The notes under the pieces: model-generated
The model's input: the letters and a program-made list of their open reading frames with translations, nothing else
What the model was told of the DNA's origin: nothing
Database searches by the model: none
In this document: positions 1 to 34,000 of the stretch, piece after piece
Numbering within the stretch: position 1 is the stretch's first letter
How the letters are laid out: the number at the start of each line of letters is the position of its first letter
Made by a program: the position numbers and the translations under genes
Assembly (NCBI GenBank): GCA_016169945.1
Contig: JADLSH010000235.1
Location: 124,001-188,000 of the forward strand
DNA length: 64,000 nucleotides
Origin: Trachythela sp. YZ-2020
Taxonomy: Eukaryota > Cnidaria > Anthozoa > Malacalcyonacea > Clavulariidae
Reading direction: 5' to 3'

Positions 1-1866
1 ACTCTTTGAGTACTGCAGCAACAGAAGCACTTAATACTTGGGCAGCTAAGTTTACTCTCATTACACCATAAGATGACAAGTGAACATGATCATTAGTGAG
101 TCGTGGCAATAATTTCAGACCATTGTCAATATCCTGATAGTAGAGCTGGCAAATATGCTCCCAGATGATGGACATTCCATCATTCCACATGTATCGAGAA
201 CCTCCACTGCGGGAATGAGATAGGCAGTTCCTTGCTGTCTTAACAAGATGTGGAGCATCACAAAAAAAATAAATGTATCTATATTTTGCATATAGATTGA
301 TAGTTCTGTAGCAAACATCTTTGCCAGAATCACCTTGAAGACCTTTGTGCATGCGATAGAATGTGCGATTTGGTGAAGCACCGTCCGAGGTTGCAGCAAT
401 GACCCACAAGTTGCAAGTAACTTCTAGGATGTAAACAGCTTCCCAAAACACAGGAAAGATCTGTTCGCATCTTATATCAGTTGTTGCAAAATAGGCCAAT
501 GCAAACTTAAGATTGGTGCAAACACCTCTGAGAAGAAACACTAAAGCATGCGTAGCAAGATCATCACACTTTTCCAAGGTATTGTAATTGACTTCAGGAT
601 CACCAAGGTCTGTAAAACCGATTAGTTCACCAGATTCCTTGCTGAAGACAAGATTGGATTTAACAGTCATCTCATCAAAAAGTAACACAACATACCTTTG
701 AGTGTTGAAGTAGGTTGTGGTTAAAGCAATTAAATCTTTGATTACTTCAGCATTAAATCCAACCTTTGGTTTGATAGCATTTCTATAGTCTCTAAGTGTT
801 CTTTGACTTGGTAGAACAAGAACTCCACTGTTTCTAAGCTCTTCATAGCAAGATGAAGATTTGCTGGCCAGAGACAGACAAAAGCGAATTATCATTGGAT
901 GGTAGCGAATTCCTTTATTGGTACTTGCTTGCAGCATTTTTTTCTGTTGTTGCCAAAATAATTGCATGAATGGTGTCATTTCCTTGTTGCTAATCTTTGA
1001 CAACATGCTTACAACATCTTTGCTCATTTCATCGTCAACTGCTATGCTTGCGTTTTCTATTTCTATCTTCATTTCTTCCAATTCTTTCTCCAGTTTAGCA
1101 CATTTTAGCCGCTGTTCCTGAAGGGCTAGCTTTATTCTTTCAGGCGCTGTCTTGGAAATGGGAGCTTTCAGTTTAGCTGCTGTCACCACTCTATTGTTGA
1201 TATTCTTCTGCGTCTTTACTTGAGCAGAAGAAACAGCTGCATGGCTGACAGGACTCGACTGATGCGGATGGTGAAATTAGCAGTTCACAATTAGTGGATC
1301 TGTGATAGTCATCATGGTGGTAGGACTTGCTAGCTTTTACTTCATTATCCTCATCCCATAATGGATCATGTGATTTGGGAATGACATGGTGCTCTATATT
1401 AGTACATTCTTTGATTCCATGGGTTATTCCATTACATAAGGTATAACCCATTATCTCTTCAATCAACTGCTGAATGCTGACTTGTTTTACTGACCTATGA
1501 TGTTTTTTGTATAGTTCATGATTTTCTGGTAAAAGCCAATGAAACACAGTCAGGGTGAATCCAAGACTGTCATCTATCACAATTTCATACTCAGGCAAAA
1601 GATATGGCAATTTCATCTTTTGCATTGTTATTCTATCATCCAATGTTACAACATTCCAGTTTCTTTTTAATTCTTTTAATTTTAAAACTTGCTTGAACCT
1701 CTGCAAGTGAGTGAAACTTCTGACAGGTAACCGGAGCTTGTACTCGATACAAAGGGCGTCTGGGGGGAATGTTCTCTTGATCATGGACTCGACTTGGCAT
1801 ATTAAGCAGTGGTAAAGCTCCAAAAACTGGCTTCTTTTTTGTCATTTTCTCAGTCACAACTACCAA
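1..1866 (-). CDS. P-element-like (THAP9-type) transposase, catalytic part, partial at window edge
   Basis: Reading leftwards, the protein contains a THAP9/P-element linker region (about 1866-1260, with a LPLLNMP motif and a [22 protein letters not shown] block). A charged coiled-coil follows (about 1200-1030), then a long open frame that runs to base 1. Its RNase-H-like motifs are in the family order: LLFDEMTV near 662-685 (first Asp), [11 protein letters not shown] near 368-400 (second Asp) and [14 protein letters not shown] near 220-262. The family catalyses cut-and-paste transposition or is a domesticated relative. The THAP exon at 2983-3351 is its likely 5' exon, across an intron of about 1.1 kb. 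Two frame changes, near 1650-1690 and near 1260, are needed; they may be short introns, decay or sequence errors. The 3' end lies outside the window. The family call is firm; intactness is not. Confidence 0.75.
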
Positions 1867-2982
1867 AAGAACAAGTCTATTTTAGTTTCACTAATAAACA
1901 AACATATGCATTTCTGTACTGTTTAAACTATACTCTGGTACATAGAAAATTGAAATGCCAATTCAATTATATTACATGAACTTTTATACTGTAACAATAA
2001 AGGCTTTACAGTATATCCCTCGCTATTAACAAAGTTGATAAATGGCTTGCAAAAAATAGATAAATAATAGTTGTATAATTTTGGAAATTTGGGGGAGGTA
2101 AAATCATACAAAATACAATTTTCAACATGCCAAAGGCCCCCAGGAAAATTTTGATTTCTAGGGTCTCTGAAACGTAATTTCCTGCATTCTTCTGAGATGA
2201 GTTTTATTATAATTATTTGGAGTATATCAGAATATATATCACACACACAATTTCTTCCCAGATATGGACTTTTATGAGAACAGTTTTGGGACCATTTGGG
2301 GCAGCTAGGGGATTCTGCCTCCCTCGTCCCCAAGGCTACGCCACTACCTTGTCTGTGTTATGAATTAAAACTATACTGTTGTGTAAAATTAAATGAATTT
2401 TAATTGCGTTACAAATTCTCAAAATATTAATAACTCACTGAAACGTTTAATGTACAATCAAGCAATATTTATGTACCTCAAGTTCATACAGGACAACGAA
2501 ATTGTAAAGAAATTCTGCTTCGATGTTTTAACATTGTTTTATAGTACTTTAATTAAATAGTTTAAAATAGTTCAAAGGGAATTTATGTATGTTATGTATT
2601 GCTGTAATTGTAGATATGTATAGTCTGTTAGTGTTATGATTGATTGATTGTGATTGTCTTATAAACCAAAATTGGTATTTTGTTGATTGTTAAATTATTA
2701 TTATAAAGTACGAATCGCATCAAGACGTGTGTATTTATACTGAGTAGAAATCAAAATAATATAATAACGTGTGTATTACTAACAGTAAAATGGTGCATCA
2801 GCACGACACATTTTATACTTTATAGTTAATATTAACACTTTGATCAAGTCACATTTTAGGCCATTTTAGATAAAACTTGATTCGCTCATACCGTCTCAAA
2901 TTACTACAAAGAACTATATATTACTTGAAAAATTTGCTGACTAGTTACTACGTTTAATATAATACACCATTGCAACATTAAT

Positions 2983-3351
2983 TCATATATTTGATACTTT
3001 GACACTTTGTAGTGCGTGACGGTCAATATGTAGATTGTCCTTTAATAGTTTAAGTGCATTGTTTTTATTCGGGACTACAAGAGCTCGCATACAAGAATTA
3101 TTTAAAACTTGGCACTTACACGTTTCGATGTCTTCTTCTTTAAAATGTTTTTCACATGTAAATACCCTGTCGTTGTCAATCTGCGCTCGAAAATTCTTGT
3201 CAATCACTCGTGTTTTCGTGAGTTCGTTCAACCACTGTGATCGCCATACCTTATATTCTTCGTTCTTAGGCGCTGGGAGTTTAAAAATACCGATACCTTT
3301 TGTTCTTCGAGACGTCCCACAACCCATCACAGCGCAATTATCGCCTGGCAT
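2983..3351 (-). CDS. THAP zinc-finger domain exon (5' exon of the P-element-like gene)
   Basis: The 122-residue frame opens [12 protein letters not shown], giving the C2 half (C..C) of a THAP finger. Further on are a W ([10 protein letters not shown]), VFTCEKHF supplying the C and H ligands, and a basic tail. THAP is a sequence-specific C2CH DNA-binding domain at the N terminus of P-element and Kolobok transposases and of host THAP proteins. It lies about 1.1 kb upstream, on the same strand, of the P-element-like catalytic ORF, so I read it as exon 1 of that gene. A short inverted repeat (ATCGCCTGG / CCAGGCGAT, about 3336-3366) overlaps the start codon region. The exact splice donor was not determined. 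Confidence 0.7.
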
Positions 3352-3364
3352 TTCCAGGCGATAA

Positions 3365-4776
3365 TTAAGATGAAACTTTACACCGATTTATGTCACCATG
3401 ACTAGTCGAATTGTGTACAAGCGTATATTGTATTTCCTATTTGTGTGCACGGTCTTTGGTCACGTGACTTAAAAAAGCGCGAAATCAACATCCGTCTTTG
3501 AAGTTTGCCGCGTTTCCTAACCATGTTCCCCCTTATATAAACTATGGTCTAAAATACAAATTACGATATAGTATTGTATTGTAAATATAGGCTATATGCA
3601 AAGAAATGATAGCGCATCAGGTTTACAAAATATTTTTCATACATAATTCGAGACATAATTCATAAAAACTGATGCGTAGCCTTTCCACATATATATAATA
3701 TATATATATGTAAAATTTAGTCCTTCAGAGTTGGAGTTCCCATTGAATCTGCTGTAGAGTGTATAGTACAGCAAAATAAAAACATAGTTGTACACCAAAT
3801 TTTGTCTATACTATAGGACAAAGACTTTAAAATAAGTCGGCTTATTGGACACTGATGTCTCACAGTCACAGACCATATGCACAGACACAATAGCATAGTG
3901 ATATGGATACTTTCAGCAAATACTAAATAACTGTATTCTAAATCCCTTTTGTATATTATATTAGATCAAGCTAGAAAGACGATGAAAACTATTTAGGATT
4001 TAAAGTGTGGTGTATACTAACTAACTAACACATATGAAGTATAATTACATATGTTTTATCGTAAATATTCAAGTTGTACCGCACGCACGGAGAGTCGTTG
4101 AATTTGCCTTTATCGGATAATTTTACCGTACGTTTGGTAACGTAAAGTTATACTTCGACATACTTCTTGATTGTCGCGTTTAGCGATGCCAAGGCGGATA
4201 TTTTACAATCTTGAACGAGATTTAACCTCTGGATAGCATTGTTTACACACAGTAGGATCTCGATATTTTATAGCAATTCCATATGTCAGCATTAAAAAAA
4301 TCCATTTTGTTTGCAGTTTGAATACCAGACAGGATAAGGTTCAACACTGTTAACAATCATATCAGTCAGTCTATAGAAGATATGTTTTATTGATTGTGTT
4401 TTATATTAAAATACCGTGCGACGCGTGCTTTCCTTGGCTTGACAAGCGTTGTGTATTGAAATCTGATCCAACTTATCGAGTACTTATCGCTTGAAATGTA
4501 ACTCAATACTCCAGGATACAGTAGGTAGTGACATGATGATGAATGCGACTATTTTATAACAACAGTTTTGTCACAATTTCTTGTTGCAAATTTTCAATTC
4601 ATCGCCCCAAAATACTTTTTTCCAAACGCAACAATATCAAAGAAGACAACACGCTCCTGTACCACCCCTCCCTATAAAGTGTATTCTCAATTTATCACGC
4701 GAAATCCGCGTGACACGTGACCAGCTCCATCCAGGGTATTATCTCCCCAAGAGATAAGAGCCTGGGAACGAGGTTG
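3365..4776. other. Intergenic, no gene recognised
   Basis: AT-rich sequence with no supportable ORF. It holds a TA-rich stretch (about 3690-3710) and, beside the R repeat, a short GAGATAAGAG-containing segment near 4740-4765. I see no conserved coding signal on either strand. Confidence 0.5.
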
Positions 4777-5358
4777 ACAATTTACTCCCCCAAAAGTTAT
4801 TGTAACATGAAGTACTGAGTCGATCAATGTAACCATGGTAACACGCACTGTATATTTCTATTATTTTGTACAAAACATTGATAAGATCTGTTAACTATAA
4901 AATTATCAATTGCCCAACTATATAAAGTAGGTATGTTATTATGTACTCTTTTAGCTTTGATTTACTGTAAAATTCAACCTTAGAAGTCTCACAAAACATT
5001 TCGAAATTTTCACAAAACAGTATTTTTATACTTCTTTTCGCACTTGTTTTTGAGATTTAAAGGACATTGGCAACCAAAATTTTTATTGTGTAATTTAAAA
5101 GTGCTTACTCATCTAAGAATAAATATGGTATTCATTTCTTGCCAAACTCTTTTGTTCAAAAGTTATTCGCATCTTAATTCACCAAAATTTTGATTTTCGT
5201 CCGCCATCTTGGAAATAGTTCTCAAAAAATTATCTTTGGGTCACATGACCGATGTGACGTCATTAGCAGGGCAGCGTCAAAACAACAATATATTTTTCTA
5301 CACGTGTTTATCGAGATTCGTGAGGTTTTATAAGAAATTGTGGCGTTTTTTTGTTGTA

Positions 5359-5970
5359 ATGGAAAATATCCACGAGCATCAAGTAGAAGAAGTGTTACCC
5401 TACCAATTTGAGCCAGAAGCGGGCGCAGAAACATCAAATTTTAGCGATGAAAGCGATTCCGAACAAGGCAGTGGTTTGTCTTCGTCTGAGGAGGAAGTCG
5501 ATAACAAGTTCGAAAGAGCAAACGCTTGGCGCCTTGAAACTCTAAGCTGGTGCAAATGTGGTCATTGTGCTTTGTCAACGAAGGCTATTGAGTGTTTTTG
5601 TTGCCACGAAAAAGCGGTGGAGTACGACGAATACGGAGTGCTTCTTGATCAAACAGAAGCACATGGCGAAGAATGTTTGACAATACATCCGGACTTTCGA
5701 GACAACATGCTGTCGGAAGGCGTACTAAAGATAGATGTTTGCCGCTATCTCGAAGAAAATTGGCCTCTAGATGATGGGGATCTGGAGAAAATACACAAGC
5801 TGTATCGTTTAGTGGCATATCAACGATGTTCACGGTGGATTTTCCAGATTTTGGGGAAAAAAAAGCGAAGACCATTTCCTGCGTGTGTTTATTCAAGCAT
5901 ACGAGAACGCTTTGCGTCGCCTGCTGGCCTATATACGCATTTCAAATATGCCAAAACATCAAAACGGTAA
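5359..5970 (+). CDS. P2X7 intracellular (ballast / P2RX7_C) domain protein carried by the Kolobok
   Basis: This is a 203-residue protein from MENIHEH. The frame also opens at 5209 (253 residues), but that start lies close to the terminal repeat and lacks the acidic N terminus, so 5359 is preferred. An acidic, Ser-rich N terminus (SDESDSEQGS) leads into a complete ballast-type domain: LSWCKCGHC, ECFCCHEK, a CLTIHPDF block, AYQRCSRWIF, and RPFPACVYSSIRERF ending GLYTHFK. In vertebrate P2X7 this cytosolic domain binds zinc through such cysteines and a guanine nucleotide; there are no channel transmembrane segments here. The gene converges on the transposase, about 530 bp from its stop. Its role in the element is unknown (accessory DNA/RNA binding or regulation is a guess). 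The family call rests on motif order and is strong. Confidence 0.85.
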   Translation: MENIHEHQVEEVLPYQFEPEAGAETSNFSDESDSEQGSGLSSSEEEVDNKFERANAWRLETLSWCKCGHCALSTKAIECFCCHEKAVEYDEYGVLLDQTEAHGEECLTIHPDFRDNMLSEGVLKIDVCRYLEENWPLDDGDLEKIHKLYRLVAYQRCSRWIFQILGKKKRRPFPACVYSSIRERFASPAGLYTHFKYAKTSKR

Positions 5971-6341
5971 TCTTTTACGTTACTTAAGCAAATTATGGAA
6001 ATTGATATAAATGTTGGTAAATTATTTATGTTTATTATTGTCATTTCTAAAAGTCCAAATCTTGTGGGCAAAAGTGAGGTGTTTCCCCATTTGGTATAAA
6101 GGTTAATTATATATTTCTCTTGGACTTGGGCAATTTAAACAAACCCAAATATTGAATGGTTGAGTGCGTTTAATATACATACTGAATCACATGGTGGAAC
6201 CCTAGAATGATATACTAAATAATATAATACAAATAAGGCCTTTTCTCCTTTACCTCAAATGGGAAAACACTATAATACTCTTGCATAAATAAAACTATAA
6301 ACATTTAAAGCATCTAACCCTGATGAATACCACATATTTAA

Positions 6342-6439
6342 CCCATTAACGTCCAAGACTTTTCCTTTGTTTGACCAGTAAAATTGTCTGGCGTTAGACA
6401 CAGTAAATACTAAAGAAGGGCATATTGCACATTAATGGG
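6342..6439. mobile_element. 98 bp TTAA mini-element (piggyBac-like ends)
   Basis: Termini CCCATTAA...TTAATGGG are flanked by TTAA on both sides (6338-6341 and 6440-6443). CCC ends with TTAA duplication are the piggyBac signature. It carries the internal motif GTCTGGCGTTAGA, which recurs near 28620-28665, 29888-29945 and (diverged) 41300-41340. Too short to code. Confidence 0.6.
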
Positions 6440-6495
6440 TTAAGCTAATAGTAATAAATATGTATTTACATTGAGTATAAAAGTGCATAAATATC

Positions 6496-9400
6496 TCATT
6501 CACGGTTTACACACTGTGCTAATTTGCATTTACATTCGCTGTCACACAACACTTCCACTGCCCTACAGTTGCACTTTCGTGTAGCACACTTTCCCTTACA
6601 AGCACAAGGCTTATTTTGTGATCTTCGTTCTTCACTTGTAGGTAAGGCTGGTTTACTGAACCGCGACTTTCTGCTGGCCACTACCTGTTCCTTTGAGGGT
6701 CGTTCCTTTCCTGCCAAGTACTGTGCAACAAGAGACTGTGGTTCAGCAGGTAGCATGTCATGTGCATGGGCTTTGGCATCCTTCAGCCTTTTGTACTGGC
6801 TCCTTAATCTCATGACTTCACTTAAAATCAACTGTACATATCCTGTAGAATATTTTAAAGATTTTAAACTCACTCTAGTTTAGGTAATTTTATACAGGGG
6901 AAACAGTTAATAATTTAAGCATTTTCATCATACACTTCATATTGTCTTGGCTTTTTTTGGGGGGGGAAATAAAATTCTTACCATAAGTGGGCTTTTCCTT
7001 CAATGGTTTTGCAACTGCCTTTTCGCCTTTGAAGGCCTTTGGATATGCAATTGCCCATCTTAGTTTTCCTTCAGCAGTCTTTGCTTGCTTTCTGTTGCTG
7101 TTTTCATTGTAGTGCAAGTTTGAACAGTACAATCTATTTCAAGAATGTATAAAAGATAATTTAATAAGCATTCTGGTTTTATAATGACACTGTGTCAGTG
7201 GACACTAAATTGATATTAGAAGCTCTCATATCATGTTGGTGAAAAACAATGAGTACTTGACCTGCACAGCACCCTCATTGCATTGCAAATACCTATACAG
7301 GGTGTCTCAAAAAAACCGCTACCCTTAGAAATTAGAGGCTTTAGAAATTTTGCTTTGTCTGGCATATTTGCATGCAATTAGAAGCAAATAAGCAATTTTG
7401 AATTCCCAAGTGTACAAAATCGAGGCTTTTTCTAAAGCCTCTAATTTCTAAGGGTAGCGGGTTTTTTTGAGACACACTGTATAATGTCTATATGGATTGA
7501 AAAGACTGTTTAGCATTTTATTAGTAGGTCATCCAATTAACTACATTGAAGATAAAGAAAACAGACTGTTGTCAGATAATCTTTGCCTGTTCAAGTGAAT
7601 GCCTCCTTTGGCAAGTTGCTAGTGAATTCAATGTTCTTGACAAAGGACCTTAACTCAAAAAGGCGACTAGAAAGTATTTTCTTTATTTTCTAAGTAGTTG
7701 GATTGAACCTGCATTTACTACACATGACATATTTCTTACATTCGACATCATAAATTGCTATTGTACACTGCCACCCAAAGAAAAGCTCACCTTGCACTCA
7801 ATGAATGATACGAATGGTAGGTGTTCTTTGAAGCAAGCAAGTTATCCAAAGCATGCTTGGCCTCCAAACCAGATGTCTGGTGATATTTGGATAACTTTCG
7901 AATTGCTGCGATAAGACGTGGTCTCGTCAACATCTCGACTAACTTTTTATGAGCAGCTGATCCTGTAATATACAAGAATAAATTATAAATGTTAGGATAC
8001 TAAGTGATTACCATTGAAACCCCTAGATGCCATGTGTTTAACTAGCCAAGGCTAAATTTGGTGAACTATTATAATTAAAATTTGTCATAAATTCTCTTGT
8101 TCATTAAATTTTACTCAACCTTGCTTAAGCCATTCTCGTTCAAGTGTGCCATGGAGACATTCAACGAAAATCTTATGGTCAGCATGTTTGTGTATGTTGA
8201 CAATATGATTTAAAATACTGCGCCACTTTTCTTCCCTTTCATCTTTGCTTTCGCTTGAATCACCAACCCAGTAAATATGATTAATGATTGACTGTCAAGT
8301 AGATGAAAATAATTTTTAAATTAAATACAAAGTACCAAAAACTGCATGAGCATATATATATATACTGCTTTAGTTGTGATACTTGACTTCAGGAATGTTC
8401 TGTGGGCATCTATCCAAATATTTTTCCTTTTCAATATAATAAGTGTGCTACTCACTCCAATCCATGGCTTAATTTTCCTAAATTTCTTCCTCTTCGCAAC
8501 CTTCATCAATTTTTTCTTTTCACCTTTAAAATGACAAATGAAATATTGTAAATGAAATAGTTTACAATTATGTATTGTATAAAATATGTCTGTACTCTGC
8601 AGTGAGCATGATATCCAGGCTCTTTAATGATAATGACAAGCTACATACCTTTTGCTACATGCCATACATCATAAGCATGCTCAATCTCTGGCTTCTCATT
8701 TGCCATGTATGAAGAGACTTGAATGTGACGATCAGTCACCAACTTTGTTACCTAATAATGATAATAATAAAATATGTAGTTTAATAATAATAATTATTAC
8801 AGTAATAATAATATCTCAGCATAAAAAGAACATAAACTGTGTGAAAACAACAACATGATATAAATACTAATGCTACTACTACTAATCATGATAATACTAC
8901 CTCAACGTTGTTGTCCTCCAAGCATTTCAGTTGCCTCTTCAAGGATTCGAGCTCCATGGCATTGGAGTTTTTCACTTCTGTTGACTGTTAAAACATTTAA
9001 AAAAAGCCGATCTTAGATTTCTGCTCAAGATCCTGTAGTTTAATTCCTAAACCTAACACTAACTTTAACCTCATTGGTCGGTTAGCCACTAATCCATTTG
9101 GGGACCTGTATATGAAAAGTCAGAAAAGTGAGCCCAGATTTCCAGTGTGCAGTGACATTGTCTAATCTGATGAAAATGTCAGAGCTAGTTGGACATCTAA
9201 AAGAGTTGAATTTTCCTTTTTGTGAAAATACAGCAATCACTGTATTATTATAACTACGATATTATATTGGAGATGTCATATATTTCAATGCAATGAAGTT
9301 TACCTTAATTACTTGCGTGTCTAATATGACGTTCCTCGTCATGTCTAAAGTGCTGCCCGACCCAAACAAACCGCTATGTCCAGGACTGTCCACACGCATA

Positions 9401-10894
9401 TCTGACGCAATTACAATCGGCTCCCCTTCGGCCTCTCGCAATCTCGCAGATTGCTCCGCTTTCCAAACGTGGTAAACTCCGGGAATGGTGTAATTTTTTA
9501 GGATGTTCGACAGCTCGCGTTGCTTCAGGTTTGGAATCTTCAACGCTTGGAAGAGACGAAGAACTTTCGACGATTCCATTCCTGTTGCGAGAATACCAGA
9601 CGCTAACAAGAGATGGAATGCTGGCATTTTGGACACGCACGGACCAGTTGTCCACTCAAAATAATGTTTACTATCGGCTGAACACGAGATGCAAATTTTG
9701 CAACACGAGCCAATTTGGTTTTCCGCAGTAATTAAGCATTTCGAACCACACTGTACGCATTGACCGAAAACATCTAAAATCGCTTCTTCGAATACGATAA
9801 ACTTAATCTGATCTTGTGAGGGTTTCCCCTCCACTAGCAGTGTTCGCTTGTCAGAATCAGAATCTTCCTCGCTGCTTTCGTCGCTTTCGGTAGACGATGA
9901 TGCATTGACGTCGACTGGAATGTGGCCGTGTGATGCTGCCGATTCCTCGCTTACGCTGCTTGCAATGCTTTCCACGTCAACCTCTGTTGTTGTAGCCGTT
10001 TGTGCTGCAGAGTCGTCTACGTTTTTGTTGATATTTAATATAGTGTTGTCCATGTCTGTAACCACGGCTGTAGCTTCGCTGACTGCTTGTGCTTCTGGAA
10101 AAGATGGACATTCCACCACGGGTTTTGTTGGAGAAGACGTTGAAGTCACTGCCGTAACGGTCTGCGTTCTCACCGATCTTGTCCCCCGTCTTCTAACTGT
10201 TTGCGTCGATCTATCTCGAGAGTTCGATGATATTTCCTCCTCGAATGTCTCTGACGCACTCGGCCTTGGGTCTGGTTCACTGCTTTGCTCAGTTGGCGGA
10301 TCGGACACACTTTCGGATTCTTTTTTCTCCTCCGGTTGTGATTCTCCGGGATTTAGAATGTTAGCAAGTTCCTATAATTGTAGATAAAATATATTTACAG
10401 TAACATTTTTGGCCAACTTTGCCAATGACAATGACGAATGTACAATATGGAAACAAAAGTGTGAAAATATCCTTATGCGCTGTGTTGTGTAACATAATAC
10501 ATATAAAATAAATTTATCGATCGAGAATTCGACTCACCTTTTCTCGCTGTCTTCTTGCTGTAGAAGTCCTTGGTTTGCTTGAGCTTGCCTCAAGCAATGG
10601 TTTGTTCAAAGTTGGCAAGGCGTCGCTTTTTAACCGTACACGAAACGCTTCCTTGCACTCGATGCGTTCGAGGAACTGCGGCGAATGCCCTGACTCGTAC
10701 GCGTCTTCGGTGAAATGCCGTGAGCAGATTCTACTGCACGACGAAGGACTGAACTCTTTGCGTTTGCAAAATTCAACCCATGCCTTTCTTCTGTGTTGTT
10801 GGGCTACGGATTTTCCGCTTGGAAACGAAAAGAAACGTATTCCACTCGGATTTTTTTGACTGTCACTACTGCAACCGTATACCGGACAGTACAT
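6496..10894 (-). CDS. Kolobok transposase with THAP domain, nine exons, apparently intact
   Basis: Exons (5' to 3'): 10894-10538, 10371-9304, 8984-8901, 8751-8649, 8523-8456, 8291-8120, 7962-7791, 7133-6982, 6842-6496. All introns are GT..AG and every junction is in phase; the sum is 2,523 nt (840 codons plus TGA). Exon 1 encodes a THAP finger (MYCPVYGC; RICSRHF; a C-terminal LPTL motif). Exon 2 has an acidic/Ser-Thr linker, a CVQCGSKC cysteine pair and the first catalytic motif SDMRVDSPGHSG. Exon 3 has STEVKNSNAMELESL. Exon 4 has the second motif VTDRHIQV and YDVWHVAKG. Exons 5-7 carry basic and helical segments, exon 8 a basic Lys-rich segment. Exon 9 ends in a Cys-rich CACKGKC...CECK-type tail. 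The protein performs TTAA-specific cut-and-paste in the nucleus. The second in-frame ATG (10894) was chosen because THAP domains begin at the first Cys; 10930 is the alternative. Confidence 0.88.
7296..7481. mobile_element. Tc1/mariner-type MITE, 186 bp
   Basis: Long imperfect TIRs of about 48 bp start TACAGGGTGTCTCAAAA and are flanked by TA (7294-7295 and 7482-7483). TA duplication and an ACAGGGTG-type terminus are typical of mariner-family MITEs. It lies in the intron between transposase exons 7 and 8 (7134-7790), so it need not disrupt the protein. Confidence 0.75.
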
Positions 10895-11949
10895 GTTGCG
10901 CCTTCGGCTTGCATGCAAGTGAAGCAGCAAAATTCGTTATGGGCCATATAGCTCCTTCGCAAACAATGCTCATTTAGAACTTGTCAGCACCTACACAGCA
11001 ACAATGATAATTGCGATTCTTTAAATAGCTAGACCTCACCGAAGAAAAAAACATTAAAAGATTTATACCAAGGTGTATCCGGATGAATGGAGATATAGTC
11101 AGAAAGTGTCGCAAAAAGTTCCTTCTAATGCGCTAATGTGCTATTGTTTGCCCTTGCAAGTGTCTGTGAAAGCCCACACAAGATTTCAATTGCTTCCTTC
11201 GGGCTTCCGCGATCAGATTTAGGTGCGCGCTAATGTATTGTTGTTGTTGCCCTTGCCGACATCATTTATGGCTAAATGACTTTCAGACTTGGTGGCTAGG
11301 TCAGTGAAAGCCCACACAAGATTTCCTGTTCGACAACCTTTGTCAGTCTTTTGTAAAACAATTTTGGTACAAAGTATAAGCGCTGGTGTATGTTACATAT
11401 TGGCATATTGTCACCTGTGAGTCGTGTTCGATGTTACAAGCAATGTTTCTAGTATATAACTACTTTCAAATAATCAAGACTTGTTTTTTACTGATATGTA
11501 CAAACTATTTCAGCAATATGCCAATAATATCTCATTTGAAATATATGGCAGACGTCCAGCATGGGGTCAACATCTCGACGCATTTAACAGTTCTGATATA
11601 TGCGTTTATTCGAAATAATGTCAAAAACATATTTGGAGAACAGTAATACTTAGGTTTGCACAATTGCTTAATTGTATTTGCTCTGCAACTTTTATTTTTT
11701 GGCAAAATGTTCTTAACGTAATAGTAATTTATATTGTCAAATTCGGCCTACCCTGCTAATGACGTCAGCAAATGTATTCCTGCATAAATTAGCATAAGGC
11801 ACTATTTTTAAAATGGCTGCCGTATGATCAACATTTCTTCAAATTTTCTCAACAACTAAATGCGATGGACACACGAAAACGCGAAATTAAGTATTCCATA
11901 GGTAAGTATAATAGATATAAGGAATAAAAAATTTGGTTGCCAATGTCCT
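10895..11949. promoter_or_regulatory. Kolobok 5' region upstream of the transposase
   Basis: Noncoding side of the element, expected to hold the transposase promoter. A direct repeat with the core GTGAAAGCCCACACAAGATTTC-like sequence occurs near 11166-11190 and 11304-11326. The subterminal segment (about 11740-11870, including TGACGTCA and GCTAATTTATGCA) is conserved at 59690-59800 in the related element. No core promoter motif is clear enough to name. Confidence 0.4.
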
Positions 11950-12433
11950 TTAATATGTTGTTTCTTATTCTATAACGTATTTGAATTAATACTAAAATAC
12001 CTTTTAACATTAATCAAATTAAATCAATGTTGTATTGACCACACAGGATGACCTACATTTTCAAATCCACAAACTATAATATACTGCATGCCAATACGGC
12101 AAAAGCAAGTATACAAAATAGACACTTACGCGTTTAAAACTCTTTAAAACTCGAAAATCTTGTCTTTCTTCCGTCTTTTGACTGTTTTTTCCTCCTGTTC
12201 CTCTAAATAATTTTCATTTATTTCGTTTTAGAGACTTTGTTTGTCTGTTTATGCCCCGACTCCCGAGTACAAAACAGTTTTCTCTCGGCCTGAACTCGCG
12301 CATGCGCATAACGTAGAAAACCGTCCATTGCATAATGGCGGACAACTTTGCATTCCGCTATGTTGTCACATACCCGGGTGTAAATATCCGAGCGGAATTA
12401 GTACCCTCGCACGGCGCTTCGCGCCGGCTCGGG

Positions 12434-18189: not shown

Positions 18190-20385
18190 TGATTATATGG
18201 ACGTTTACAGACGATTATACAAGGTATGTGACAGTCTACTTTCTTAAATCTAAATCGGTACGTCATGTATGTTAATATGTATGTCAATATGGTACAAACT
18301 GCGACTGGTCTGAAAGTCCAGAATCTTAGAACTGACAATGGTGGAGAATATGTATCTCATGATTTTACTAAATTTTGTACGAGTAAAGGAATCTTTCATC
18401 AGTTTACCAACCCATATACACCAGAGCAAAATGGCATATCAGAGAGACTTAATAGAACACTCATTGAATCAGCAAAATCTATGATTTTCCATGCCAATAT
18501 GCCATTACATTTTTGGGCTGAAGCAGTGAGTGAATACAGCGGTATAATAGAAGTCCGACAAGCTCGTTGAAAGATAAAACACCGCATGAATGTTGGTTTG
18601 GGAAGAAACCAAACGTGTCAAATTTGAAAGTTTTTGGATGTATTTGTTTCGTTCATACTCCGGACAGTTTGCGACAGAAACTTGATCCTAAGTCTCGAAA
18701 GGCGATATTTGTCGGTTACCCACTTGATACGAAAGATTACAAAGTGTATGATTTGGAGTCCAAACGTTTCGTGAGAAGTTGAAATGTATTATTTCATGAG
18801 AACAAATTTCACAGTTTTAAATTAGTTAACAAGGAAACAGTCTTGAAAGAAGATGGTGAAGTCAATGAACAACATGACGAGAACGAACAGTCTGTTATTC
18901 AAGTTGAACCCACAATTAATCCAGCTGCACCAGAGCATGCAGAGGATGTTCCAGTAGTGGGAGCTTCATGCGACAAATCGAAAATATCGGTCCAACTAGA
19001 CAAAGGAAAGCACCTGAAAGATTTCGTCCAGATGAATGTTATGTTGCAGAGTCACTTACTGCAGAGAATGAAGAACCTCAATCTGTTGAAGAAGCATTAA
19101 GAGGTAAGCACTCAAATAAATGGAAACAAGCTTTAGAAGCTGAATACAATTCATTGATGAGCAATGAAACATGGGAATTGGTACCACCTCCCGAAGATTC
19201 AAATATCGTTGGGTCGAAATGGGTATTGAAAGTTAAACGTGATGCAAATGGGAACATTGATAGACACAAGGCTAGACTTGTAGCCCAGGAATACTCACAA
19301 ACCCAAGATGTAGATTACGAGGAAGTATTTTCTCCAGTTGTTAGATACTCAAGTATCAGAACTTTGCTAGCTCTAGCAAATGCTCAGAATCTAGAAATAC
19401 ATCAAATGGATGTAAAAACTGCATTCTTAAATGGATCGATTGAACACAACATTTACATGTCTCAACCTGAAGGATTTGTTGATCCAGATCATCCTGAGTA
19501 TGTATGTAAGCTAAAGAAAAGCATCTATGGACTAAAGCAATCCGCTCGATGATGGAATCAGACCCTCGATAGTTTTCTAATGGCAAATGGTTATCGTAAG
19601 AATGGCGCTGATAACTGCATTTATGTAAAGTCTGAAAGAAAGGCTAATGGCTTCATCAGTTTTGTAATATTGGCAATATATGTCGATGACATCATTCCGG
19701 TTTCCAATGATGTTGATATGCTCAACGCAGAGAAAGAGTCGTTGTGTAGAGAATTTGAAATGGTAGATCAAGGAGAAATCCACTTCGTTGTCGGTATGTC
19801 AATCAAGAGAGATAGAGAAAATAATGTATTATTCATTAATCAAGAGAAATATTTAGAAGGTATGCTAAATCGATTTGGAATGCAAGATTGCAAGTCAGTC
19901 TCAACTCCACTTGAGGTAGAAATGACATTCCACAAGCAAACAGAAAACGAAGAATCGTTCGATAAACATGTATATCTACAAGCTATAGGCTGTTTAACCT
20001 ATGCATCAACAGCAACAAGCCCAGATATCGCTGCAGCTGTAAGTATTTTATCCACATTTATGTCAGATCCAAGCAAAGAACACTGGATGGGAATTAAGCG
20101 ACTGCTAAGATACATTAAAGGAACTATGAATTATGGCTTAAAGTTCACAGCAGATGAAAATGATCACGAGTTATATGGTTATTCAGATGCGAATTGGGCA
20201 GGGGATGTAGACACTCGTCGTTCTACCTCCGGATATGTTTTCAAAGTAGAGAACTCCACAATTAGTTGGTGTTGTAAGAAGCAAGCAACAGTAGCGAAGT
20301 CCACTATGTATGTTGCTTTAAGTCAAGCCTGCCAAGAAGCGATTTGGATGCGAAAGTTATTGTGTGATATTGGTTCAAAAATCGA
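18190..20385 (+). pseudogene. Degenerate Ty1/Copia retrotransposon pol (integrase to RNase H)
   Basis: Copia pol order is seen: the integrase core end (FTDDYTRYVTVYFLKSKS; LRTDNGGEYVS; YTPEQNGISERLNRTL; HFWAEA), the GKKPNVSNLKVFGC and AIFVGYPLDTKDY region, then reverse transcriptase (WVLKVKRDANG; QMDVKTAFLNG; YGLKQSAR; IYVDDI), then the connection and RNase H (YGYSDANWAGD; VALSQACQEAIW). There are stops and frameshifts near 18240, 18520-18560, 18781 and 19550, and a deletion in the RNase H KST-to-YVALS region. Gag, protease, the integrase N terminus and both LTRs are missing; the 3' end is cut at about 20385. This is a non-functional fossil. Confidence 0.85.
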
Positions 20386-20462
20386 CCTATCCTTACTTCT
20401 TAGAACTCGGCTCAAAGCTAAGCTCGCTCGATATGGAGGTAGGGTCGCACAATATATATGGT

Positions 20463-20602
20463 ATTTAATGGCTGCGAGGTCCGGATAGTGGAATACTGTG
20501 CCCGAAGTCGTGAAAACGGCTTTTAGTCGTGAAAACGGCTATAGCTTTTCACGACTGAGGGCACAGTATTCCCATATCCGGACCGAGCTAAGCCATTAAA
20601 TA
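20463..20602. repeat. Palindromic MITE-like hairpin at the Copia 3' break
   Basis: Imperfect arms run from ATTTAATGGCT, through GTCCGGATA and ACTGTGCCCG, to GTCGTGAAAA, and are repeated in reverse on the right side (TTTTCACGAC...AGCCATTAAAT). It sits directly after the truncated Copia RNase H. No clear target duplication. Confidence 0.55.
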
Positions 20603-21325: not shown

Positions 21326-24300
21326 ATGTCCGGCCAATTTTTTTTCTGTGTCTTGTTTCTTTGGCTTGTTTTGAACGCTGTTTTTGCAGTTCCAAATAAA
21401 AAGAACCTTTATTGTGCCGTGTGTGGCAAATGCTGCAAACAAAAGTTAAATTCTACAAGAAATAGCCTTCCACAAAGCGCTCTTCTGGAGAGTTGCTTCG
21501 GTGTTTCGCACGAAGGGACAGGGATATTATGTTCTACTTGTCGAAGAGCTTTGTATATATACAGAACCACAGGAAAAACGTCCTTTCAGGTAATTTTTTT
21601 ACAATTTTTAATAAGCCAAGTGGCAAGTAAAATTCAAATTATACTAAAAAGCACAGTGTCTAATTTGTTTTGGTTTTATTAATATGCTAGTTGGTTAAAT
21701 CAAATAAAAAAGATAAAGCAGGAAGACCAAAGAAAACACAACGAACTGTCCCAGCTAGAACTTGGTCGGATACCAATAACGAGGGATGGGTGGCAGAAGA
21801 CACATGCTTTGGAGTGTTACGGAGAGGGGCCAATGGAGACGTGCTTATGCCAGCAGAAATGTATGATGATATTAAGACGCAGTTCAACTGCCTGTCTGGA
21901 AGTATGTACATACTGTACTGTATATTACATGCACAAAATGTAAACAGACTGTAACAATACTCCATGAGTAGGGAGTGGGGTCCTTGCCCTGGACTACATG
22001 CATGTTGTGAGCTCCTTGAGAGGAGGCTTTACAAATTGTGGTCAAATTGCCCCCCCCCCCAATGATACTATGATGTTGTTATAGAGGCCCCAGTGAAACA
22101 TTTGCCCTGGTCTCCCGAAATCTTGCCATTATCCTGGTTAACATAACATTACAAATTAACAAGTAAATAACAACAAATGACAAAGTCAATGCTTTTCTTG
22201 CAGGATGTGATCTCAAATTGGAGCTGGAGAAAATAAAACAGAGCATATATGAGAACTTTGTTCTTGGAAACCAACCAGCAATATATCAACCAAATGAATT
22301 CATCGATTTTTGTCGTCAGGCAGGTGCTCCAAATATATTTGAACACATCTTGCAAGCAGTTTCAGAGGACCGTCATTCCCACAGGCGTCAGGATCTCAAC
22401 CGAGTAAGAACAGTGTCGATAATTTATACTATGTGCTACCGCCGCAGCCAGATGTGTAATGTTATGCAAGTAGATAATGCACTCTATCTGAACTCCAATA
22501 GGATGACTCAAGAAGGCATAGATACACAATATCGGATGGGACATACATGCAGCCGTAAAACATCTGACATAATCCGCAGCCAACTGTCGCGAAATCATGA
22601 GGAAAGTCTGAAAAATTTTTTCAACCAAGCAATCCAAAATGAATGGGTTTTGGTACTTATAATCGATGACTTCACCAAAATTCACACCTATCGAAGACCA
22701 GCCATTCTGAGAACTTGCAATCCAATGAGCATGTGTACAATTGTAGTAAAGGCATTCAAGCAATTGAGAGCAATAAAGGTACCATCAAATATTTCCAGAA
22801 TCCATTGCCCAGATGGTGTTGACATACCAGCTTGTGTAGATGCTATAACCTCCCCTGAACAGGCTGCACTGTTAAGCAATAGTTACGCCTCAACTATGCC
22901 AAATTGGTTGACCACGCTGTTTTTTACACCGGATCTTGAACGACACATTCTAGAAGAACATGGCTATGGTGACGAGTCTGGAGTTCGAATGATGAGAACA
23001 ATGGATGATTTGCATCTAATTGACTTTGTCGAGTTACAGTTGAAATCAAAGGATGGTTTTCCAAAGCATATGATACAATTGTGGCATCAGGTTTAGCAGC
23101 TTATTTGAAGAAGTTTGTCATAATTCAGCCTGGTGACTGGCCATGCCAATTTTATTGTAGACAACTGATATACGAATCTCTCACCCAGTATCAGCAATCA
23201 TGTGCATCTCAACAGGAGCATCAGTCATCCTCCAATACTGTGGAAAATTGCAACTCCAGGAGCGGTCAAATCCCTGCCATAACATCTCTCATTCCCACTA
23301 TGAGTCCATTGCACATTTCCTAAATAGTAGAGAAGACATTTTCATACATTTAGACCGTTCTTCAACCAAGTTTATAGTTATTTGTTCCCAAACAGTAAGC
23401 TGACAAAATCACCCAAACCCTGGAGAATAAATCTCATACTAGAAACAGTGTATGGTAGTTGGACATTAATACGAGATCAAGTGCTGACCAAATTTCAAAA
23501 TTCCAAGGACACTCAATATGGTACACTACTCAATTTGTTAGAAAACTATATCCCACTGGTTTTGACAATTTATACAATCACTTTCAAAAGAAACAATTTT
23601 AAAGAATACTACAATTCAATGATCCGGATATGGGTAATGTTCCTGTGCCTAAAGCGCCGTCATTACAATAAAGCTCCCCTTGTGTGGTTATCAAACACTT
23701 CCCACTGGAAAAGCAAGTACAATGAGCTTTATGAACAATTTTCCAAGTGGCCCACAATTTTTGATGAATATCCAGTGGAGAATACACACAGCATCATCCG
23801 AGCCCAAACTCAGCCTTCCGACACTGCCGCTAAACTTCAGGAAAGGGCAAAGGGTATATTTCAATCCAAGACCAAACAAGCTAACTTTCGATTAAATTTC
23901 ACCCCTCCAAAACACTTCAGTTTTTCACAGCAGCAACTTAAGTACCTAAAGGTCCGATGTGCAGAATTTTTGACAAACATTTTCATTGTGATAAATGATA
24001 ACATTGGCTGTGCTTCTAGTTTTATAAGAAGGAAAACAAAATATGTCCGCTTACCACACATTTTTGGACAAGCAGAAGTTAAATACACAGCTCTTCCTCT
24101 TGGCTTCAGCGCAAAGCAGGAACCAAACCAAGATTGCATATGTGACCTCCACTCGTGCACCATTAACGACGACGATGAACCATGGAGAATTTTTCAAGGG
24201 TGTTGGCATTCATTCCATGTTAAATGTCTCAATGGCACTACTTTCTGCCCAATTTGTCATGCCTTTCTTCAAAGTAAAGTGGAGGAGCTTGGTAAAGTTG

Positions 24301-25211
24301 TCAAAGATGCCATTTTACATCCAAATCCAGCCAAGGAGGCCCAGCTTGATGATAATCCTGATGATGAACCAGCCAATATGGAAACTCTGCCAACTGTTGA
24401 TCTACAAAGTATAGATGAAACAATAAACAAACTGAGTGACAAAATTGCAAATTTACACCCACCACCAAAGCCTTCTAATCACCATCTGCAACGAGAGCAA
24501 GCACCACCAGCTAATTCTGATTCCACTCAGCATAACAGACACAAAAAGCGGAAACCTCTTCGGGAAGTTCAAAATTTAGTTAACCATGTAGTGCAGCAGG
24601 AACCACCTCAACAATCACAGCAAAACACAAATGGAATCATGGAATGGCTGTTCCCCACAAGTATCTGCCAAACCCAAATAGGTGGAAGACCACTGGCAAG
24701 TAATGCTTGCACAATTATTGCTTCAATGTGGTGCCGAAAGTTTCTGTTAAAAACATTGGCTATCCCATCTAATAAAAGTGATATCCGAGCTATGACAAGC
24801 AGCTACAAACAAACAATTTTGAATGGGAATTTATTGTACCAAGGTTTGAATCTACCTCATAACCAACCAAATTTGGAAGTTCGAGATGTGGTCGGCAAGA
24901 TTAAGGATCTGAACTTACAAATTTTGCACGATTTGGGATTCTTCAATGTGGATGACATTAAAGAAACATTTGTTAAAATGCTTCAAGGAGGGAAAAGGCA
25001 TGCTGGCGTTTGGATTATCCCACCAGCTAATTCAGTGGCCATACTTATTGATAATGGAAACCTAGCTGTGTTTGACAGTCATCAGCATGGCAATGAAGGT
25101 GGCCTAGTTCTCGTATGCAAGCTTGCAGAAATAGATGAACTTTTCAATTATCTTGGAGAAAAACATAACTTGTGTGGCAGCAACTTTGCCGAACTTGCTA
25201 TGAATGTATAG
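21326..25211 (+). CDS. Putative transposase with AT-hook-like motif, RING-H2 finger and C-terminal cysteine-peptidase-like region (copy A, frameshifted)
   Basis: Exons 21326-21589, 21691-21901 and 22204-25211 join in phase (GT..AG). Domains in order: an N-terminal Cys cluster (CAVCGKCCKQK...CFGV...CSTCRRAL); AGRPKKTQR, AT-hook-like; a candidate DDE core with LVLIIDDFTKIH as Asp 1, IQPGDWPCQFYCRQ as Asp 2 and PVENTHSIIRA as a possible Glu; RING-H2 (CICDLHSC...CWHSFHVKC...FCPICHAF, about 24136-24265); a Pro/Gln-rich linker; and a C-terminal region with RPLASNACTIIASMWC (candidate catalytic Cys) and LAVFDSHQHGNEGG (candidate His). Relative to copy B it lacks one base in each of three homopolymers (about 23056, 23321, 23343), which break exon 3. 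The DDE and peptidase calls are inferences; the RING call is strong. Confidence 0.65.
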
Positions 25212-31038: not shown

Positions 31039-34000
31039 AGCAGCTGGGAAATTTGTTGTCGCTGTGCAGAAAAATTGCTGGCACAGCCTGTTTTTTTCGT
31101 TGGAATTCGAATTTTGAATCAGAACTACAAAGAGAAAGTTTGTTGAGATCTGAACTTCTCTGACCGATGATCAAGATATTTAAAGAATGGGAAGTTTTTT
31201 ATTAGCACACCAACTTTGCTTCAGATGTTAAATATGTCATTTTTAACGGTAAATTTTGTTCAAATAATGGCGACAAAGATACCTTGGTTTGGACTTGTAG
31301 TTGTGCCTTTCGAACTGTTGTATTTAGTTGTGAATTGTGCGGCAACTCGATTACTTAAATGGCGTAAAACAAACTTGTACGTGAACTGATACCCATGGTT
31401 TGATAGAGGACGATTTTTCAAGTGGTTTGAGCCAAATCTGTGCGAGTGATGACCACATTTATACACGAAGAAGTAGACCGATGAAATGAACACAACTTTG
31501 CCACGCGCGTGCTGAAAGAAGGACTGTCTGCTACACGTTGGTGTGATGAAACCAGAAAAAGGTACGCAAGATGTTCCTTACAACTTTAGGTGTCAGTTCT
31601 GGTTGTGTTTTCCCCAGATAATTTCACGTTTGTACAGGGTGAGGAAAAAGTTCACATGCCTTCGCAGCTGTTGACGTTCTAGGTCCAGGACAGGGGGTAT
31701 AGCAAGCAAGTTCCGACAGCTCAAAATCTTAACGAAATCTCCCAAATTTTTGTACTAAATTTTGTATTCCCATCGTTTGTTGCTTTCGATAAACAGTATT
31801 TTGTTGACATAAAAATCGCCCTTCCGATTGAAATCCTGGGTTGTATTTCAAACATTGCATATTGGTTCACTTTTGATGCCCGGTATATTGGATAAAAGGA
31901 TCGCAAATTTTTTGAACTACTAGGTTCATCTTTTGTTATAGTTTCTGGTTCTAATTTGTTAATTCTTGTATAGAAAAATCAACCCGTTACTCCTTCTAGA
32001 ACAAAAAATATTTTAAATTATATCTCGTCGTATTTTCTCGTCTCATTCAGTATTTAAACCGAGTCCCTACAGAGCCAAATTACAAAAAATCTAACCGAAA
32101 TCTCCAAAATTATGCCCCTATTTTTGAATTCTCTAGAGGTGTGGAAAAAATAAATTCATAATCGTTTTGAGTGAAAAATTGCCCTTGAAGGCAAATTTCG
32201 CCTTTAAAACGCGCGCTAGTAAGCATGAAATGTGAGCAAGCTAGCTGTTGAACCACGTTCCAATCAACTGGGATTCCTTTCGGCTGAAATTACTATACCG
32301 TGCCCTTATTTGGCGCGATTCACGCGAATAGTTTCAAATGTTTTCCCACTACAAATAGGCATTTTTAGCTTTCTTTTATTGCTGGAAGTAACTTTAGTAC
32401 CATTTATATTTCGACTATGTTTTTTCAAAACCAAACTTGGTCATATAAATTTAATAATAGATAAATCTAAAATTCCAGAGACTTTTCAATGTCTGAATGT
32501 CATACAAAACTTGAGCTCAACCTTTATACAATTTTTCCCCTCAAAAATAGAGTCTCATTTGATATTTGTCTGATGAAATGCATTGGTTTGTTTCACATGT
32601 ACAGTAATCACCTTGCTATGTTTATTTAAGTTTCAACTTAATCAACCAACTGAATGATTTTAGATGGTTTCATATGCCTGTGTTTATTCACTAATTGTAC
32701 AATTCAACACAAATTTTTGAAATGATTGAAAACGATATATTTACTGACTCCCTTATACATTGATTTGCAATATTTTATTTCAATTGAACATTTCCTAACA
32801 AATGATGTCATGCACTATACATTCATAGCAAGTTCGGCAAAGTTGCTGCCACACAAGTTATGTTTTTCTCCAAGATAATTGAAAAGTTCATCTATTTCTG
32901 CAAGCTTGCATACGAGAACTAGGCCACCTTCATTGCCATGCTGATGACTGTCAAACACAGCTAGGTTTCCATTATCAATAAGTATGGCCACTGAATTAGC
33001 TGGTGGGATAATCCAAACGCCAGCATGCCAATTCCCTCCTTGAAGCATTTTAACAAATGTTTCTTTAATGTCATCCACATTGAAGAATCCCAAATCGTGC
33101 AAAATTTGTAAGTTCAGATCCTTAATCTTGCCGACCACATCTCGAACTTCCAAATTTGGTTGGTTATGAGGTAGATTCAAACCTTGGTACAATAAATTCC
33201 CATTCAAAATTGTTTGTTTGTAGCTGCTTGTCATAGCTCGGATATCACTTTCATTAGATGGGATGGCCAATGTTTTTAACAGAAACTTTCGACACCACAT
33301 TGAAGCAATAATTGTGCAAGCATTACTTGCCAGTGGTCTTCCACCTATTTGGGTTTGGCAGATACTTGTGGGGAACAGCCATTCCATGATTCCATTTGTG
33401 TTTTGCTGTGATTGTTGAGGTGGTTCCTGCTGCACTACATGGTTAACTAAATTTTGAACTTCCCGAAGAGGTTTCCGCTTTTTGTGTCTGTTATGCTGAG
33501 TGGAATCAGAATTAGCTGGTGGTGCTTGCTCTCGTTGCAGATGGTGATTAGAAGGCTTTGGTGGTGGGTGTAAATTTGCAATTTTGTCACTCAGTTTGTT
33601 TATTGTTTCATCTATACTTTGTAGATCAACAGTTGGCAGAGTTTCCATATTGGCTGGTTCATCATCAGGATTATCATCAAGCTGGGCCTCCTTGGCTGGA
33701 TTTGGATGTAAAATGGCATCTTTGGCAACTTTACCAAGCTCCTCCACTTTACTTTGAAGAAATGCATGACAAATTGGGCAGAAAGTAGTGCCATTGAGAC
33801 ATTTAACATGGAATGAATGCCAACACCCTTGAAAAATTCTCCATGGTTCATCGTCGTCGTTAATGGTGCACGAGTGGAGGTCACATATGCAATCTTGGTT
33901 TGGTTCCTGCTTTGCGCTGAAGCCAAGAGGAAGAGCTGTGTATTTAACTTCTGCTTGTCCAAAAATGTATGGTAAGCGGACATATTTTGTTTTCCTTCTT

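Follow-up and report, generated by a model that had tools for sequence, protein, structure and literature searches.

The stretch analysed here, 64,000 nucleotides of a contig from the octocoral Trachythela sp. YZ-2020 (referred to as the window), contains at positions 5061-11949 a single 6,889-bp element with TTAA on both sides. The element carries two genes: an open reading frame (ORF, 5359-5970) on the plus strand for a protein with the ballast domain known from the cytoplasmic part of the P2X7 receptor, and a predicted nine-exon transposase gene on the minus strand. A pair of this kind is known from Kolobok transposons of the Kol0 lineage, whose families, the originally reported Kolobok families among them, encode besides the transposase a protein named KolX, which folds like the cytoplasmic ballast (Kojima and Bao 2022, PMC9587614). 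The features of the element are listed below; all exon limits are those of the splice model.

5057-5060, no strand: left TTAA target-site duplication (from the sequence)
5061-5087, plus strand: left terminal inverted repeat, 27 bp, beginning with AG (5′-RR), paired with the right end
5359-5970, plus strand: KolX ORF, 203 aa, P2X7 cytoplasmic ballast domain (PF20478 match, fold match to P2X7, identical protein at two other loci)
6496-6842, minus strand: transposase exon 9, Cys-rich C-terminus and stop
6982-7133, minus strand: transposase exon 8
7791-7962, minus strand: transposase exon 7, TSGLEAKHA with the presumed catalytic E (column invariant in seven relatives)
8120-8291, minus strand: transposase exon 6
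8456-8523, minus strand: transposase exon 5
8649-8751, minus strand: transposase exon 4, VTDRH (second D) and DVWH (C/DxxH signature) (invariant D, D, W and H columns)
8901-8984, minus strand: transposase exon 3
9304-10371, minus strand: transposase exon 2, SDMRVDSPGHSG (first catalytic D; invariant column)
10538-10894, minus strand: transposase exon 1, THAP DNA-binding domain (PF05485, E 6.2e-16 on the full protein)
11923-11949, minus strand: right terminal inverted repeat, paired with the left end
11950-11953, no strand: right TTAA target-site duplication (from the sequence)

The ends of the element read AGGACATTGGCAACC..., and its terminal repeats are identical at 26 of 27 positions. In agreement with a reading of the window made from the sequence only, these are precisely defined, TTAA-flanked Kolobok ends, and their type (AG...CT, that is 5′-RR and YY-3′) is the one that characterizes Kol0 (PMC9587614). 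TTAA also borders 10 other listed copies of the element on both sides. A genome-wide count of the exact end pattern TTAAAGGACATTGGCAAC gave 293 + 297 occurrences; for the reversed pattern it gave 0 + 0.

The Pfam family P2RX7_C (PF20478) matches ORF 5359-5970 with E 4.4e-13 and 50 bits (cut-off 23.5), and no further Pfam family matched at E 1. Together with the presence of all four ballast motifs in the translation, this bears out the sequence-only reading, which had described a complete ballast motif series without a channel domain and had proposed the PF20478 profile as the check. The frame contains an in-frame ATG further upstream, at 5245 (241 aa); the start at 5359 is supported because the close relatives P0003 and P0004 are also 203 aa long, with a query coverage of 100%. 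The predicted structure of KolX matches the P2X7 cytoplasmic ballast (PDB 6u9v, 8tr5 and 9e3m) at 22-26% identity in structural alignments. When compared with PDB sequences, window KolX alone gave no match at E 0.001, but its profile did. Across 51 relatives, conservation is 90% or higher at each of seven cysteines (C65, C67, C70, C81, C82, C106 and C176). The named relatives are from the octocorals Dendronephthya, Xenia and Paramuricea (120 of 183 proteins were listed, few of them named). KolX starts about 300 bp or less from one element end and points towards the transposase, so that the two genes are convergent.

The transposase model has nine exons joined across GT-AG introns and encodes 840 aa without a stop (splicing is predicted). 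Both reading frames of the element are thus open, and as far as reading frames go its description as apparently intact is borne out. Seven database relatives (E 3.3e-51 or better, out of 10 found at E 0.001) show no variation in the D, D, DxWH and E columns; they come from Paramuricea (three), the sea urchin Diadema, two fishes and one source without a name. In the model of one relative, P0121 (mean pLDDT 53.9, higher in the core), the first D is part of a strand and the second follows shortly after a strand, and its best PDB matches are the ISCth4 and Hermes transposases, with the P element at E 0.04. Between the C/DxxH signature and the last E there are cysteines that may belong to the zinc finger expected there in a Kol0 transposase. 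When the 840-aa protein was scanned against Pfam at E 1, THAP and, below the cut-off, MULE (E 0.3) were the only families to match. The piggyBac transposons, which likewise use TTAA, were ruled out as the source of the element, there being no piggyBac domain match and the ends being RR/YY. Taken together, the TTAA sites, the RR/YY ends, the DDE residues with C/DxxH and the KolX fold make it probable that the element belongs to Kol0. A separate THAP transposon gene occupies positions 1-3351 of the window on the minus strand (THAP exon at 2983-3351); it has a TNP-like RNase H domain with a GTP-binding insertion domain, as in P-element-like transposons, and its frame runs off the window start.

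The genome (578 Mb, 396 contigs) was searched with the window KolX protein, which gave 153 matches, 150 of 586 candidates being scored. Among the scored matches, three are 100% identical to the query, the window included, and one is 99% identical. Twenty loci were fetched from the upper part of this list, and the shares given for them below are therefore not genome-wide estimates. Four of these loci (L017, L018, L019 and L025) are 98.9-99.6% identical to the window element over long aligned pieces, with 9, 16, 14 and 45 substitutions, respectively, and each is bounded by TTAA. A frameshift interrupts KolX in L025, and the other three have it open; for the transposase, L018 has an open frame and L017, L019 and L025 a broken one. 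When up to 1 kb of KolX-side flank was compared for each of the 20 loci and the window, only L030 and L033 were alike. The four near-identical copies at other TTAA sites with unrelated flanks indicate that the family of the window element moved recently. The intron between transposase exons 7 and 8 contains an inverted repeat of about 190 bp (7294-7483; arms of 39 nt at 97% and 24 nt at 96%), which looks like a small foldback element; it is older than the four sister copies, since these have no large gap there.

We next consider whether KolX and the transposase belong together. A transposase core is present at 17 of the 20 fetched loci, in every case on the strand opposite to KolX; the loci without it are L027, L033 and L036. 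A TTAA-bounded terminal repeat with at least 13 of 15 matching positions was found by script at 15 loci. For the remaining five, both ends were found by inspection in L033 and the KolX-side end in L021, L027, L028 and L030. At L024 the pairing of the ends depends on the method: 7,023 bp by script, which took a farther end, vs 6,298 bp by alignment.

Both genes are under purifying selection between families within this one genome. In nine between-family pairs (window, L020, L024, L028 and L030, leaving out the same-family pair L020-L024), the Nei-Gojobori method gave dN/dS values of 0.08-0.18 (KolX) and 0.09-0.19 (transposase core); stop codons were skipped, and the L024 KolX has one. All 32 between-family KolX pairs with computable dS, from 13 loci, gave values of 0.08-0.21 (dS was not computable for 41 of the 78 pairs). 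Values were higher, 0.40-1.30, in five within-family KolX pairs, where they derive from few changes, and the within-family transposase pair L031-L035 gave 1.50. For the transposase of L026, which contains stops in its frame, the computable pairs gave 0.26-0.69; pairs with L027 are based on 16-47 codons. The recurrence of KolX in several families, with selection on both genes, is what the sequence-only reading had said would support a functional two-gene element. The two proteins also diverge in step: over seven loci, their amino-acid distances correlate with r 0.959, a value reached by 13 of 5,040 relabellings (the loci were chosen one per family, by our own grouping, out of 21 copies). Correlated distances alone are no proof of joint action; they fit a long shared travel.

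A second genome search, with P2RX7_C itself, revealed another KolX lineage. In this search 150 of 750 candidates were scored, and the lowest listed match has 76.6 bits, so that window KolX with its 50 bits does not appear. Four places from this list were fetched (L037-L040). L037 and L038 contain KolX of another deep lineage, and here, too, the transposase core lies on the strand opposite to KolX; the far ends of these two elements were not found within the fetched stretches. The L038 KolX matches P2X7 in the PDB with E 4.8e-20, much better than the window lineage, and profile comparison links both lineages (probability 98.8, E 8.4e-17). By sequence, the L038 lineage is closer to P2X7 than the window lineage. 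The seven cysteines of window KolX align to the L038 lineage and, via L038, to P2X7. The P2X7 ballast binds zinc through seven cysteines (PMC9587614); window KolX has the corresponding series and is predicted to bind zinc as well. The P2X channel family (PF00864) has all 11 of its genome matches on contig C135, which holds none of the 150 scored P2RX7_C matches (of 750 candidates); a fused gene resembling P2X7 was thus not seen among them. At L040 (4753-5391) a KolX frame lies, by eye, beside retroelement-like frames; neither element ends nor a transposase match was found there; decay of the copy or a nested insertion probably accounts for this.

These results make us confident that ORF 5359-5970 encodes KolX and belongs, as second gene, to a Kolobok of the Kol0 lineage, the protein being most likely a partner of the transposase in trans. 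The THAP/DDE transposase would move the element into TTAA sites, as suggested by its anatomy and by the near-identical copies at different TTAA sites. KolX is a small ballast-fold protein with the cysteines predicted to bind zinc, and would work with the transposase in trans. That it works with the transposase is the most likely reading, since selection maintains both genes in the tested families and the two diverge in step. By analogy with the Myb-like protein of Harbinger, it may serve as a partner in assembly, end binding or nuclear import, and trans-acting partnership with the transposase is its most likely mode. For participation of KolX in transposition we see about even chances.

The alternative that fares best holds that KolX is a regulator, a repressor or dosage sensor rather than a helper, and that short derivatives keeping KolX, whether or not they also retain THAP, act as a brake on full copies. 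We regard it as unlikely. Two short elements invite this reading. L036 (6454-8290; 1,837 bp, TTAA ends matching 18/18) has an open KolX and a THAP frame without a core, and two further loci (C130:1265575 and C390:7349440) equal it in score and open-frame length. L039 (1840-6437; 4,598 bp, TTAA ends 18/18), which is of the L038 type, keeps an open KolX frame and the transposase start; four pieces of it align to L038 with 93-96% identity, and the L038 positions 402-4050, which hold most of the transposase, with its core, are absent. The open-frame length of its KolX, 138 aa, is common to 33 of the 150 scored P2RX7_C places. However, internal deletions will often spare KolX by chance, given its location within about 300 bp of one end in the window element, and L029 (3,823 bp), a deleted copy of the window family that has lost its middle, has a broken KolX. 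L033, with 1,784 bp between its ends, an open KolX and no transposase, was dropped as a mobile KolX-only element: it shares with L030, on a different contig, the same Kolobok insertion and a 97% identical flank (1,008 aligned columns), and probably represents a duplicated or allelic copy of the L030 locus that has undergone a deletion. For this reason we rate lower both the regulator and the related idea that short core-less elements with an open KolX, alone or with THAP, are kept and spread because KolX acts on ends or transposase, as helper or brake; the latter seems to us improbable.

The end pairs argue in the same direction. Among the first 100 listed ends there are 31 pairs, two of which hold a KolX match while 29 hold none from the listed matches, although a missing KolX is no proof of absence, as 150 of 586 candidates were scored. 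None of the 23 pairs shorter than 3 kb holds KolX from the listed window-KolX matches. Being too short for a full transposase gene, these would move in trans, and so they show only that KolX is dispensable in cis. Mobile relatives lacking the ORF were what the sequence-only reading had named as evidence against itself; the 23 short pairs are a weak case of this.

The sequence-only reading had presented the ORF as cargo. That a host ballast gene was lately picked up as a passenger by this one transposon is very improbable. Ballast domains, including free-standing genes, do occur across animals (PMC7016195, whose sections concerned make no link to transposons), which is the point in its favour. 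But KolX lies opposite a transposase core at the 17 loci described above, in at least seven families by our grouping; the pairing is repeated in the second deep lineage (L037 and L038); the two proteins diverge together; and Kol0 families are reported from vertebrates, annelids, cnidarians and sponges (PMC9587614). KolX is the regular second gene of the lineage rather than a passenger. Finally, a domesticated host gene merely adjoining transposon remains can be practically dismissed: PMC9587614 does regard the related Nanor as a KolX that was probably domesticated, but the window element and its four near-identical copies are TTAA-bounded at sites with unrelated flanks.

Elsewhere in the window, two units of two ORFs each, very similar by eye, lie in opposite orientation at 22431-25211 (plus strand) and 32815-35599 (minus strand); one frame of each was scanned and gave no Pfam match at E 0.01. 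Two plus-strand frames at 18968-20488 resemble, by eye, a Copia-type polyprotein.

The central idea, that the tail of P2X7 came from a ballast gene carried by a transposon, has been in the literature since 2022: a P2X4-like gene is proposed to have fused with KolX to give P2X7, and according to the same paper the link between ballast and transposon had not been pointed out earlier (PMC9587614). In our literature search, KolX, and cytoplasmic ballast together with transposon, were found only in this paper, and no paper joined Kolobok with octocoral. The published inference that the P2X7 tail descends from some KolX agrees with our sequence and fold matches. The capture vehicle suggested by the sequence-only reading is therefore not new, and another KolX lineage of the genome stands nearer to P2X7 than that of the window. 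New here are the selection on both genes, their joint divergence, the second deep KolX lineage and two TTAA-bounded core-less derivatives (L036 and L039). The presence in one genome of two deeply split KolX lineages, one clearly nearer to P2X7, makes it a more pointed question from which Kolobok lineage vertebrates received the P2X7 tail. If the stand-alone control reading were true, P2X7 and Nanor would have recruited a transposon-control protein. A young two-gene Kolobok with near-identical copies at different sites is also bench material for testing the job of KolX.

Among known systems, the element is most like Kol0 Kolobok, with which it shares the two genes (a DDE transposase and a ballast-fold protein), TTAA, 5′-RR/YY-3′ ends and C/DxxH. 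Compared with the Kol0 elements of PMC9587614, the families here are new and their host is an octocoral; the convergent genes, the nine-exon THAP transposase and the core-less derivatives bearing KolX are described here. Window KolX shares fold and cysteine series with the P2X7 cytoplasmic ballast, but lacks the channel domain to which the ballast is joined in the receptor. P-element-like THAP transposons have THAP and a DDE core in common with the window element, whereas TTAA duplication and KolX occur only in the latter. In Harbinger (PMC9179366), too, a DNA transposon has two genes, one of them for a conserved accessory protein, and the trees of the two proteins match globally; the Myb-like protein of Harbinger, which is reported to bind the ends and to allow joint nuclear import, is however unrelated to KolX.
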